Assembly (NCBI RefSeq): GCF_004348545.1
Contig: NZ_SMKL01000005.1
Coordinates: 62,001-126,000 of the forward strand
Direction of reading: 5' to 3'
Origin: Jiangella ureilytica
GTDB lineage: Bacteria; Actinomycetota; Actinomycetes; Jiangellales; Jiangellaceae
Length of the DNA stretch: 64,000 nucleotides
Made by a program: the position numbers and the translations under genes. Positions 50,946 to 54,382 of the stretch are shown piece by piece (positions within the stretch are counted from its first letter, which is position 1; every line of letters begins with the position of its first letter). The notes beneath the pieces are model-generated. The model had not been told where the DNA came from and ran no database searches. It saw nothing but the letters and a program-made list of their open reading frames with translations.

Positions 50946-52409
50946 ATGACGATGTGGACTCACTCCCGGTCTTCGGGACAACGTGGAGCGGAAGGTGATC
51001 GGACCGGGGGCGCGTCGGGCGACGCCATGACCGACGCTACCGGGACCGATGCGCACGTCCAGGCTGACACGCGCGACCCGGTGTCGTGGTTCGAGCCCGG
51101 CGTGGCCGTGCCGCCCATCCCGCTGCGCCGCAACGGCGTGGCCGCGGTTGCGAGCGCCGACGATGCGGGTGAGACTCAGTCGCGACCGGGCGAGGAGGAC
51201 GCGCCGTCGCCCGACGGCGAGTCAGGGGCACATGCGGTAGCAGGAACCGAGGCGGAGCCGGAGCGAACACTGGACGTTCAGCCGCCCAACACCACCGGGC
51301 TCGACGGTGAGGCGCTGCGCGAGAGCCTGGCACTGGTCGAGGACCACCTCGACGCCGTCGGTGTCGACTTCTACGCGCAGCTGTTCACCATCGCCCCCGA
51401 GTCGCGCGAGCTGTTCGGCGCCGGCATGGCGGTGCAGCGCTCGCGTCTGGTCGGCGCGCTCGTGAGCATCGTCGGCAGCGCCGACGACCGCGACACCCTC
51501 GTCCCGTACCTCGAGGGCCTGGGCCGCGACCATCGCAAGTTCGGCGTCATCGACCAGCACTACGCCCCGGTCGGCACGGCGCTCGTCCTGGCCATCCGGC
51601 GGGCGCTGGGCGACCAGTGGACCCCGCGGTTCGAGTCGGCCTGGATCGAGGCCTATGACCGCATCGCGGCCATCATGGTCGGCGCCGCCCGCCGCGACGC
51701 CGTCATCTCGCCGCCCTGGTGGGACGCCGAGGTGGTCTACCACCGGCGCATCCTCGACGACCTCGCGATCATGCAGGTGCGCCCGCACACCGACTACCCG
51801 TACCGGCCCGGCCAGTACACGTACCTCACGACGCCGCGGCGGCCGAAGATCTGGCGGGCCTACTCCATGGCCTCCGCTCCCCGCGACGACGGCCTGCTCG
51901 AGTTCCACGTGCGCACCGTCGGGGCGGGCTGGGTCAGCAGCGCGCTGGTCTGGCGCACCGAGCCCGGCGACATCCTGCACCTGGGCGCCCCCCAGGGGCA
52001 CGACGTCGCCACGCCGCGGTCGGAGCACGACCTGCTGTGCATCACGGGAGGCACCGGCATCGCGCCCGTGCTGGCCACGCTGCAAGAGCTCGAGCAGCGC
52101 CAGGACGGACGGCGGGTGCACGTCTTCTACGCCGGGCGCGACCGCGACCACCTGTACGCGCTGCCGCACCTCGAGTCCATCGGGGTGCGCTACCGGCGGC
52201 TGACGGTGGTCCCCGTGGTGTCGCCCGACGGCCCCACCGACCGCAGTCCCGACCTCATGGGCAACATCGTCTCGGCCTACGGCGACTGGCGCAAGCACCG
52301 CGTCTACGTCGCCGGCCCGACGACCATGGTGGCCACGAGTCTCGAGCGGCTGCGCGAGCAGGGCGTCCCCGACGAGCAGATCGTCGTCGACGACTACGGT
52401 CTCTGGTGA
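50946..52409 (+). CDS. Flavohemoglobin-like nitric oxide dioxygenase with disordered N-terminal extension
   Basis: 487 residues, ATG start behind GGAGAGG. Residues 1-115 are disordered and acidic (an ATG at 51027 would remove 27). The globin domain (about 118-250) keeps the flavohemoglobin residues: Tyr143 (B10), Phe157 (CD1), Gln164 (E7) and proximal His196 in GLGRDHRKFG. The FNR-type domain has RPGQYTYL and RAYSMAS (FAD) and ITGGTGIAPVLATL (NADPH). The product probably oxidises NO to nitrate. The usual C-terminal FGP is replaced by YGLW. Confidence 0.9.
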   Translation: MTMWTHSRSSGQRGAEGDRTGGASGDAMTDATGTDAHVQADTRDPVSWFEPGVAVPPIPLRRNGVAAVASADDAGETQSRPGEEDAPSPDGESGAHAVAGTEAEPERTLDVQPPNTTGLDGEALRESLALVEDHLDAVGVDFYAQLFTIAPESRELFGAGMAVQRSRLVGALVSIVGSADDRDTLVPYLEGLGRDHRKFGVIDQHYAPVGTALVLAIRRALGDQWTPRFESAWIEAYDRIAAIMVGAARRDAVISPPWWDAEVVYHRRILDDLAIMQVRPHTDYPYRPGQYTYLTTPRRPKIWRAYSMASAPRDDGLLEFHVRTVGAGWVSSALVWRTEPGDILHLGAPQGHDVATPRSEHDLLCITGGTGIAPVLATLQELEQRQDGRRVHVFYAGRDRDHLYALPHLESIGVRYRRLTVVPVVSPDGPTDRSPDLMGNIVSAYGDWRKHRVYVAGPTTMVATSLERLREQGVPDEQIVVDDYGLW

Positions 52410-52476
52410 GGCTGGTCTCCTTTCCCGTGCGGGCCTCGCCGCTGCCCGGGACCTCGCGGTCTGCGTCGCTCTAGCC

Positions 52477-52500
52477 CTCTCTAGCTGTCGCGCTAGAGAG
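52477..52500. terminator. Palindrome downstream of the AAA ATPase and flavohemoglobin genes
   Basis: CTCTCTAGC (52477-52485) and GCTAGAGAG (52492-52500) form a 9-bp stem around TGTCGC, between convergent gene ends. It could terminate both. It is followed by TCGTAGACGACCC, resembling CTAGACGACCCC in the repeat upstream of the ATPase gene. Confidence 0.55.
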
Positions 52501-52522
52501 TCGTAGACGACCCGATGCACCG

Positions 52523-53719
52523 TCAGACGGTGGCGTGCTTGCGCAGGTAGATGCCGAAGTGCGGGACGGTGAAGGCGATGGTGCCGCGCTCGGCGGAGTA
52601 GACCAGCCCCTTCTTGATCAGCGAGTCGCGGGCCGGCGACAACGACGACGGCTTGCGGCCGAGGTAGGTGGCGACGTCCGAGGTGGGGACGACGCCGTGG
52701 GTGTCGTCGGACAGCGCGGCCATGGCCCGCAGGTACTCGCGCTCCGCCGGGGTGGCGCGCTCGTATCGCGACCCGAAGAACCCGACCGCCAGCTCGGCCT
52801 GGGCCTCCGGCGCGGCCATGCGGACGTCGTCGGCGCCGATGGGGTCGGTGGGGGCGTTGTCCCAGGTGACCTTGCCGTAGGCCTGCACGAAGTACGGGTA
52901 GCCCTCGGTCGCCTCGTAGAGCGCGTCCAGGGCGGCCGGCTCGTAGGTCACGCCCTCGTCCGACGCGGGTGCGACGAGCGCGCGGTCGGCGGCCTCGCGG
53001 TCGAGGCGGTCGATGCGCACGTACCGGAACAGCCGCTCGGAGTACGACTTCGACGCCGACAGGACGGCGGGCAGGTGCGGCAGCCCGGCGCCGACGACCA
53101 CCAGCGGCAGGCCCTGCTGCGAGAGCTCGTGGCAGGCGGCGCAGAGAGCGGACACGTCGGGTGCGGGGATGTCCTGCATCTCGTCGACGAACAGCGCGAT
53201 GCCGACCCCGACGTCGCGGGCCACGCCGGCGGCGTCGACCAGCAGCTCGACGAGGTCGACCTCGATGTCTCCGGTGTCGGCCCGCCCCGTGGCGGCGGGG
53301 ACGTCGATGCCCGGCTGCCAGCGGTCGCGCAGCTTGGCGTCGTCGCCGGCCGAGCGCAGCGCGAACGCCTTGAGCACCCCGAGGAAGCCGTCGACGCGGT
53401 CCGGGTCGCGGTGGCGCGGGGTCAGCTCGCGCACCGCCATGTGCAGGGCGCTCGCCAGGGGCCGGCGCAGCGACTGGTCCGGCCGGGCCTCGATCTTCCC
53501 GGTCCCCCACATGCGGCCGATGGCCTGCGACCGCAGCGCGTTCAGCAGGACGGTCTTGCCGACGCCGCGCAGACCGGTGAGCACGAGCGAGCGCTCGGGT
53601 CGCCCGCGCGCGATCCGCTCGAGCACGACGTCGAACTGTTGCAGCTCGCGGTCGCGGCCGGCCAGCTCGGGCGGGCGCTGACCGGCGCCGGGGGCGTAGG
53701 GATTGCGCACCGGGTCCAT
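52523..53719 (-). CDS. AAA ATPase with winged-helix C-terminus (Orc1/Cdc6-like)
   Basis: 398 residues, ATG start. Walker A GLRGVGKT (49-56), an insert with EVDLVELLVDAAGVARDVGV, Walker B ALFVDEMQDIP, sensor-1 LVVVGAGLPHLP and a C-terminal winged-helix segment (ATPAEREYLRAMAALSD, VATYLGRKPSSLSPARDSLIKKGLVY). The architecture resembles Orc1/Cdc6 and STAND-type ATPases. Widespread in actinomycetes without a defined role. Its 5' region carries a 50-bp palindrome and its 3' end a related one. Confidence 0.85.
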   Translation of the reverse strand: MDPVRNPYAPGAGQRPPELAGRDRELQQFDVVLERIARGRPERSLVLTGLRGVGKTVLLNALRSQAIGRMWGTGKIEARPDQSLRRPLASALHMAVRELTPRHRDPDRVDGFLGVLKAFALRSAGDDAKLRDRWQPGIDVPAATGRADTGDIEVDLVELLVDAAGVARDVGVGIALFVDEMQDIPAPDVSALCAACHELSQQGLPLVVVGAGLPHLPAVLSASKSYSERLFRYVRIDRLDREAADRALVAPASDEGVTYEPAALDALYEATEGYPYFVQAYGKVTWDNAPTDPIGADDVRMAAPEAQAELAVGFFGSRYERATPAEREYLRAMAALSDDTHGVVPTSDVATYLGRKPSSLSPARDSLIKKGLVYSAERGTIAFTVPHFGIYLRKHATV

Positions 53720-53728
53720 GATCGGACT

Positions 53729-53778
53729 CTATGGTGTCGTCTAGCGGGAACCGTAGATTTCGCTAGACGACCCCATAG
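53729..53778. repeat. Long inverted repeat upstream of the AAA ATPase gene
   Basis: 18-bp arms (53729-53746 and 53761-53778) match with one mismatch around a 14-nt spacer. The core is TCGTCTAGCG / CGCTAGACGA. It lies 10 bp before the ATG of the ATPase gene, so it overlaps the promoter or 5' leader. The shared CTAG-containing motif with 52477-52513 suggests one protein binds both ends. Confidence 0.75.
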
Positions 53779-53807
53779 GCGTGTCGTGATTCCCCGTCCG
53801 CCACGAT

Positions 53808-54382
53808 TCAGACGGGTTCGCGGAACGGGTCGTGCTCGGCGATCAGCTTGTCCACGCGGGCCTGGTCCAGCCGCTTCGTCAGCGCGGCGTCCTCCTGCTG
53901 GTCGCCGTCGCGCCGGCGATCAGCACCAGCGCGGTGTTGTGCAGCAGCGGCGGCGTGACGGCGCCCCGCTCGGCCACGTTGGCCAGCCCGATGACCGCCG
54001 ACGAGGGCAGCGCGGCCACCCAGCCGTACACCAGCGCCCAGCCGATGACCGGCGCGACCACCCAGAAGACGGGCAGCGTCTGGGCGCCCCGCTCGACGGC
54101 GGCCTCCAGCTGCAGCGGACGGGTGGCGACGATGGCGGCGGCCGCGACCAGCAGGTCGACGGTGAGCAGCGGCCAGCGCCGGGCTCCCGGCCGGCGGTAC
54201 CAGGCGAACGTCAGCGCCGTCCAGAGCCCGAGCCCGGCCAGCACCAGCCAGGCGGCCGTCACGTGCCGGTAGTCGTCGAGAGCGAAGGCGTAGAGGGCGG
54301 CCGCATAGAGCACCGAGAACGTGCGGAACACCGCGAGCGCGCGCCACCACTGCTCCTCGTACCCCGGCAGCGCGGCGCCCAC
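53808..54382 (-). pseudogene. Truncated MacS-type sensor histidine kinase
   Basis: The N-terminal 160 residues from a GTG at 54382 are the membrane-sensor domain of a MacS/DUF5931-type kinase: GAALPGYEEQWWRALAVFR, then five hydrophobic segments ending TALVLIAGATA. No phosphoacceptor or ATPase domain follows; the frame stops at 53879. A second frame takes over and reads DAALTKRLDQARVDKLIAE to a stop at 53808, resembling the tail of another protein. A deletion that removed the kinase body and fused unrelated ends explains this. Confidence 0.65.

Follow-up and report, generated by a model that had tools for sequence, protein, structure and literature searches.

In this study, we observed that the two palindromes bracketing an AAA+ ATPase gene of Jiangella ureilytica are the centres of phased four-half-site arrays, a feature overlooked in the initial annotation of the same DNA. 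The arrays, their spacing, their conservation, their overlap with a candidate promoter and their confinement to the locus are all directly observed, and it can be suggested that the ATPase forms an assembly on the DNA that surrounds its gene, probably for self-control and perhaps also to organise that stretch of the chromosome. Our data provide a DNA code for a widespread AAA+ family without a described function that we could find, together with a spacing rule that can be tested and a location that is almost unique in the genome; no account of the gene or of its arrays was found in the open-access literature, as judged by titles and the beginnings of abstracts. If the ATPase binds as predicted, it would be a bacterial initiator-type AAA+ protein working on phased arrays round its own gene, and should the array cluster be what the system exists for, actinobacteria would have a novel type of chromosomal cis-element near oriC.

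Phased arrays on both sides of the ATPase gene

The window, by which we mean the whole stretch of 64,000 nucleotides that was analysed (G000:C124:62001-126000), carries the ATPase gene on the minus strand at 52523-53719, with one array on each side. The flanks of homologues were aligned, and the array consensus obtained is TCTA-N6-TCTA-N10-TAGA-N6-TAGA, in which the TA steps lie 10, 12 and 10 bp apart. The 3' array (52470-52507), detected by pattern scans, displays all 16 consensus bases in its four half-sites and includes the 24-bp palindrome CTCTCTAGC-N6-GCTAGAGAG at 52477-52500, followed by TCGTAGACGACCC, exactly as annotated before. The promoter array (53730-53767, minus strand; G000:C124:115730-115767), detected by the same scans, likewise has four half-sites and displays 14 of the 16 consensus bases, with two mismatches; together with a fifth, outer TA step it is held by a 50-bp inverted repeat at 53729-53778, recovered in a repeat search (I10). 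The arms of this repeat (53729-53746 and 53761-53778) are 18 nt each and 94% (17/18) complementary, which agrees with the 18-bp arms and single mismatch first described, but the repeat does not overlap the gene as had been stated, for it ends 9 bp before the start codon, outside the open reading frame. Both elements share the 13-mer TAGACGACCC[G/C]AT (repeat D16). Throughout the window, only 52470 (no mismatch) and 53730 (two) show fewer than five mismatches to the consensus, and the two places with five are shifted registers of the same arrays. CTAG is strongly avoided in the window (22 observed, 155 expected from base composition), and 5 of these 22 fall within the two palindromic elements, indicating that the palindromes are not due to chance.

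The promoter region was compared in 95 loci, comprising the window and 94 others, with L036-L040 left out as duplicates and L172 dropped because its start did not fit. Every one of them has a TAnnnT box where the array ends, 6-8 bp ahead of the start codon, and in the window this is the candidate -10 box TAGAGT (53726-53731, minus strand), 6 bp before the start codon. A Shine-Dalgarno-like word precedes the ATPase start in one locus out of 95, and the mRNA may be leaderless, with the array placed over the -10 box and the region upstream of it. A simple scan for a sigma-70 consensus promoter at the locus returned none. A further conserved word, GACAC (53781-53785, minus strand), lies at -68 to -50 in 89 of the 95 loci. 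GACAC is the WhiA motif of Streptomyces venezuelae (PMC3781837), and the match at the ATPase promoter is taken as a possible lead only.

Gaps of 10 and 12 bp predominate in the 94 loci in which TA-TA gaps were counted: upstream of the gene, 188 gaps of 10 bp and 197 of 12 bp were recorded and none of 11 bp; downstream, the corresponding numbers were 242, 192 and 2. With up to three mismatches allowed, 14 of 95 loci were without a promoter array and 9 without a second array (L157, L163, L165, L166 and L170 being left out of this count as duplicates of L036-L040). Ten of those 14 loci belong to Nonomuraea, in which the promoter arrays look degenerate by eye.

The ATPase, its fold and its distant relatives

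The protein comprises 398 aa, with an AAA+ domain and a C-terminal winged helix. Pfam AAA_16 (PF13191) matched residues 18-209 at E 2e-20, with 74.4 bits against a gathering cut-off of 32.6, while ATPase_2 (17.2 bits, cut-off 33.2), the NCBIfam Orc1/Cdc6 model TIGR02928 (19.5 bits, cut-off 181.3) and, with their Pfam cut-offs, nSTAND6 and nSTAND1 all scored below. The Walker A (GLRGVGKT) and Walker B (FVDE) motifs, assigned by eye, are intact, and the Walker G, K, T, D and E residues are invariant in 27 aligned homologues. An AlphaFold2 model (mean pLDDT 73.5) gave SSO1545 as the top VIA alignment (Z 16.1, rmsd 5.8, 306 residues), followed by PABY2304 (Z 15.9, rmsd 6.1, 306 residues), the NLR protein NRC4 (Z 15.2, rmsd 5.8, 308 residues) and ORC2 of A. 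pernix (Z 15.1, rmsd 7.6, 307 residues); the Orc structures 2v1u, 2qby and 1w5t reached Z 13.1-15.1 over about 300 residues, and NLR chains aligned over the common core only. Foldseek ranked RuvB first, with low TM-scores. An AAA+ domain followed by a winged helix, the order of Orc1/Cdc6, is thus seen in the AAA_16 domain and the fold match, and the modelled fold is of the Orc/Cdc6-STAND type; as SSO1545, PABY2304, the NLR and ORC2 lie within about one Z unit, the fold does not pick the Orc or the STAND branch. The winged helix is the last part of the 398 aa, with no C-terminal sensor or repeat domain of the kind that marks STAND effectors, and a Pfam search with E up to 1 returned no Rep domain and no ParB family, so that the protein is not of the ParB type. 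Searches of PDB sequences and of IMG/VR yielded no relative, and the only match to the anti-phage defence models of PADLOC was to mads_8 (16.3 bits, E 0.0013), with no single stretch passing alone.

Relative to the window gene, the ATPase genes of 11 Jiangella genomes differ at 20-41% of fourfold-degenerate sites and at 0.8-2.5% of codon positions 1 and 2, indicating strong selection on the protein. Matches were present in 57 of the 99 genomes searched, our own genome counted and five of them only at E 1e-5 to 1e-3; the other 42 relatives, some with incomplete genomes, had no match at E 0.001, and the closest named relatives with the gene are Jiangella.

Distant homologues are found in 118 plasmid records, of which two or more have the size of a chromosome. 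In relatives on plasmids (43-46% identical) and in other genomes (32-50%), repeats of other words were noticed by eye directly before the start codon. For 18 homologues that are 32-50% identical, repeated 4-mers were counted over the 75 bp ahead of the gene, and the peak fell at lag 10 with a count of 52, compared with a mean of 4.9 and a maximum of 19 in 200 dinucleotide shuffles, and with 10 in a control stretch further upstream of the same genes, where the highest count was 17, at lag 12. One plasmid homologue, a Clavibacter gene, contributed 13 of the 52 matches, and three of the 18 homologues had none. The repeat words differ between homologues and the 10-bp spacing is kept, which is our chief reason for regarding the ATPase itself as the probable binder. 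A correspondence between recognition-helix residues and half-site words among the distant homologues was also sought and given up, as no clear rule emerged. Two of the records are worth mentioning on their own: in L178 (Rhodococcus opacus pROB01), a 43% homologue lies 251 bp from the TnsA-like gene of a TnsA/transposase/TniB/TniQ set, and L179 (MT837995.1), labelled Bacteriophage sp. and possibly mislabelled bacterial DNA, harbors a 72% homologue with a similar promoter layout.

Among known systems, ParB-parS and the iteron initiators of plasmids also have strong sites clustered in cis near the gene, the iterons with a weaker operator at the gene's own promoter and parS with a place near oriC. 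The clustering in cis is alike at the ATPase locus, but the architecture of the sites is unrelated. Orc1/Cdc6 initiators and Orc1-2 share with the ATPase the AAA+ plus winged-helix fold and recognise sequence-specific sites, as the ATPase is predicted to do at its arrays; in contrast to them the ATPase is bacterial, the sites are TCTA half-sites phased at 10/12/10 bp, and no regulon was found. The archaeal ATPases SSO1545 and PABY2304 are the best structural matches of the model, although the ATPase stays below the cut-off of ATPase_2, a Pfam family 'predominantly from Archaea'. To our knowledge, no operator arrays are known for either of the two. Archaeal Orc1-2 is described as a non-initiator that regulates expression and is switched by ATP binding and hydrolysis (PMC9738581). 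IniR of mycobacteria is described as a protein of 818 aa in which a predicted SSO1545-like AAA+ domain is joined to an SdiA-like DNA-binding domain, with a MalT-like domain, and which induces a promoter and has target genes (PMC5760070). Both IniR and the ATPase thus combine an SSO1545-like AAA+ domain with a DNA-binding domain, but the ATPase, with 398 aa, has no sensor domain.

Conservation, confinement and inheritance of the arrays

The initial annotation had proposed to ask whether both palindromes travel with the gene in relatives, and both sites were indeed present at the gene in all 12 Jiangella genomes. Each of them has a perfect 16/16 array 3' of the gene (two such arrays in G002), and a promoter array with 13-14 of the 16 bases (2-3 mismatches) was equally found in 12/12. 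A search for further copies, proposed at the same time, revealed no four-half-site array with 0-2 mismatches away from the locus in these 12 genomes. With three mismatches, one off-locus match was recorded in each of six genomes, one word being common to three of them, and as the reversed control gave 0-4 matches per genome, they are not above chance. When three half-sites were required and no more than one mismatch was tolerated, the 38 matches listed from the 12 genomes all lay at the ATPase locus, with 0-8 control matches per strand and genome. No regulon for the ATPase was therefore recognized, as the Jiangella genomes scanned hold no array members elsewhere. Strict CTAG triples at C96:51814 and C101:39424 of G000 were rejected as members, being short and failing the four-half-site pattern at up to three mismatches. 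The weaker core TCTAS-N8-STAGA occurs at 0-3 extra places per Jiangella genome beyond the locus arrays, and these extras were rejected as a regulon too: although six of the 12 genomes share the word TCTACCATCCTTCGTAGA, none of the extras reaches the three-half-site pattern. At about 1500-1530 of L032 (G000:C101), three CTAG repeats overlap the beginning of a small gene, which by eye is antitoxin-like and has a neighbour resembling PIN; the letters of these repeats resemble the arrays and their architecture differs.

Beyond Jiangella, 148 genomes of the class were scanned with at most one mismatch, and 17 arrays were detected in 16 genomes, with no control match. Sixteen of the 17 adjoin an ATPase homologue, in one case a homologue of 52% identity; G005 and G009 are included in this tally, as is G016, whose array contig ends within the last 13 ATPase residues, and the remaining array, in G096, lies on a different contig from that of the ATPase gene. 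In 38 further genomes with the gene (L055 and L105 left out), 100 arrays with up to two mismatches were detected, 99 of them on the same contig as an ATPase copy and no more than 20.6 kb from it; the exception is G171:C247, and the control gave 4 matches in total. Taking the 50 genomes with the gene together, 123 of 124 arrays with up to two mismatches are on the ATPase-bearing contig, at most 20.6 kb away, the total comprising 24 from Jiangella and 33 plus 67 from the further genomes, with the same three arrays listed on two contigs of G177 counted as six. The distances were recomputed for 94 of the 100 non-Jiangella arrays, the other six being those of G104 and G153 (which adjoin the gene), three of G177:C2 and that of G171:C247. 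These duplicated arrays of G177 (C2, L278; C3, L279) accompany an ATPase copy on C2 that is split into pieces 70-77% identical and apparently broken, and a whole copy on C3, suggesting a duplicated or misassembled region.

Fifteen of the 124 arrays lie 5.5-20.6 kb from the gene. Of 13 Geodermatophilaceae genomes scanned, ten (G172-G179, G181, G182) hold one or two arrays 5.5-15.3 kb from the gene, and G171, G180 and G183 have no array at that distance. The neighbours of the distal arrays include an amidase, a glucose-6-phosphate dehydrogenase and a DEAD-box helicase, and some of these arrays, e.g. that at the helicase gene, are directly upstream of a gene. Further arrays are located 3' of the gene in Jiangellaceae and Streptosporangiales, and mainly upstream in Geodermatophilaceae. 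The idea that distal arrays always sit between convergent genes was dropped, since 14 distal or outer arrays (L260-L272 and L274, one per locus, with L273 left out; gene strands from ORF calls, some checked by homology) comprised 7 convergent, 5 tandem and 2 divergent cases.

The locus is vertically inherited and not mobile. All 12 Jiangella genomes harbor one full-length copy of the gene, G000 with a second, partial and weak match (E 5e-4), and the same flavohemoprotein-like convergent neighbour (50946-52409, plus strand; Pfam Globin, FAD_binding_6 and NAD_binding_1), which is context outside the unit, lies beside the 3' array in 12/12; from the array to its stop codon the distance is 2 bp in 11 genomes and 60 bp in the window genome. 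Neither several copies nor a changed place, the marks of a mobile element, was seen among these close relatives. Other DNA lies between the ATPase gene and the 3' array in 5 of the 12 genomes (0.47-2.96 kb); in gene orientation and by eye, it holds an AbiE-like toxin-antitoxin pair in G005 (L157, 8590-10317), and oxidoreductase and TetR-like genes in G009 (L159, 7510-10460). On the other side, what remains of a DUF5931 protein (a probable sensor kinase) was noticed at 53808-54382 (minus strand) as 167-180 aa in two overlapping frames; its counterpart ORF in Jiangella G001 is about 1.7 kb long, and the window version looks decayed or frameshifted. Over about 40 kb, 10 other genomes were compared with the window: serS or pheA is common to 6 of them, at least one of serS, pheA and the DUF5926 gene to 7, and none of the three to G160, G165 and G166.

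With dnaA as the sole origin marker, 21 genomes were scanned, and the ATPase gene was found 82-195 kb from dnaA, always on its downstream side, in all 15 genomes in which the common contig was verified or carried the same handle (G159 being off by 100 bases, and the distance in G050 being counted across the end of a single contig taken as circular). In four more genomes the two contigs agree by number only, at about 170-272 kb, and in two dnaA is on another contig. Conserved gene order alone may explain this proximity.

Proposed mechanism and competing explanations

We consider it rather probable that the ATPase binds the arrays along one face of the DNA and represses its own promoter, with stronger distal arrays nucleating or looping the complex. 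The winged helix would most likely read the TCTA half-sites, and several protomers would sit side by side on one helix face, neighbours 10 bp apart having the same orientation and those on either side of the 12-bp centre facing each other. Since the promoter array covers the -10 box and the region upstream, binding would shut off the putative leaderless transcript, while the further arrays in cis, usually stronger and 15 bp to about 20 kb away, could nucleate the assembly or hold a loop, and ATP would set the oligomeric state of the complex. The most economical account would be a self-limiting nucleoprotein switch, with the promoter array as operator and the stronger cis arrays as nucleating or tethering sites. 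That an Orc/Cdc6-like AAA+ protein with a winged helix might bind both sites and regulate itself had been anticipated in the initial annotation, and the proposal gains indirect support from sites that travel with the gene in 12/12 Jiangella and from a 5' array that covers the promoter. Autoregulation as the whole role is hard to reconcile with the 15 of 124 arrays lying 5.5-20.6 kb away. As there are no arrays elsewhere, no regulon explains the strict keeping of the ATPase, and the clustered distal arrays would allow the cluster as such to have a role in the chromosome.

Such a role is the substance of an alternative which we hold to be unlikely, namely that the clustered arrays form a cis-acting chromosomal site (centromere-, origin- or domain-anchor-like), with the ATPase as cognate loader and autoregulation as secondary; iteron initiators and archaeal Orc1 beside its origin boxes are models for it, and an origin-like element had been among the suggestions of the initial annotation. 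It is consistent with the near-complete clustering of the arrays within 20.6 kb of the gene, distal ones included, with the greater strength of the off-promoter arrays in Jiangella, with the lack of arrays elsewhere to make up a regulon, with the location 82-195 kb from dnaA, on one and the same side, in the 15 verified genomes and with the Orc-like fold. However, the position can follow from serS/pheA synteny, some distal arrays are just upstream of genes, and the 42 of 99 relatives without a match, with 5 more weak, argue against a universal chromosome function, some of these genomes being incomplete. Equally doubtful is the bolder form of a self-contained nucleoprotein system, in which the ATPase would polymerise sequence-specifically on helically phased arrays over 1-20 kb round its oriC-proximal gene, making it a bacterial locus for centromere function, origin control or domain organisation that is separate from ParABS and DnaA; as part of this form, the operator code would be 10 bp in the same orientation and 12 bp facing, its 10-bp part common to a wide family with the words swapped. 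It is less probable still that some other conserved DNA-binding protein binds the arrays and regulates the ATPase gene. Conservation of GACAC beside the promoter array implies that other regulators may act there, but a general regulator should have more genomic sites, none of which were found for the array, and the change of words at constant spacing among distant homologues again favours the ATPase.

Self-repression by the ATPase is also preferred to two explanations that we judge very improbable. The more remote one, which the initial annotation had suggested, takes the gene and its two palindromes as a small mobile unit delimited by the arrays. The differing DNA between gene and 3' array in 5/12 Jiangella, the plasmid-borne homologues and the second, apparently broken copy of G177 with its own arrays would fit it, but a full-length second copy exists in none of the 12 Jiangella genomes, purifying selection on the gene is strong, the flavohemoprotein neighbour is constant, core neighbours such as serS and pheA are partly common across orders, the arrays vary in number, side and distance, unlike element ends, and in the Jiangella loci, whose neighbours were annotated in part, we noticed neither a transposase nor an integrase next to the gene. 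Scarcely more probable is that the 3' array, lying between convergent genes, acts as an RNA element or terminates transcription. Taken as a single RNA sequence, the window 3' array gives a good fold (-18.4 kcal/mol, z -3.2), and sliding the partners lowers the paired cells in the Jiangella 3' arrays from 73.3% to 22.6-46.2%, though this loss arises because the invariant TCTA/TAGA bases are themselves complementary. In 13 Jiangella 3' arrays all 16 of these bases are invariant and the spacers vary, most of the six spacer pairs are broken, none shows changes in both partners, and pairing equal to or better than that of the spacers was reached by 494 of 500 shuffles, which argues for a protein site and not for an RNA hairpin. 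An ordinary terminator at the 3' end, named beforehand as an observation that would speak against the first interpretation, was sought; neither a T tract nor a terminator-like site occurs at 52470-52507, the only terminator-like site in 52300-53900 being at 52397-52414, off the array, and Rfam at gathering thresholds returned nothing at the locus. Moreover, arrays at the promoter, and those located upstream in Geodermatophilaceae, do not lie downstream of the gene. An RNA hairpin or terminator in Jiangella was rejected on account of the unpaired spacers and the lack of a terminator-like site, despite the good single-sequence fold. Several Streptosporangiales 3' arrays are near-perfect palindromes, with 5-6 of the six spacer pairs, and a hairpin could form at these. 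Some Actinomadura 3' arrays (G188:C5:123386, G189:C17:169745, G190:C2:299503 and G191:C222:102041) enclose a TTGGAC-N2-GTCCAA palindrome, possibly the site of a second protein.
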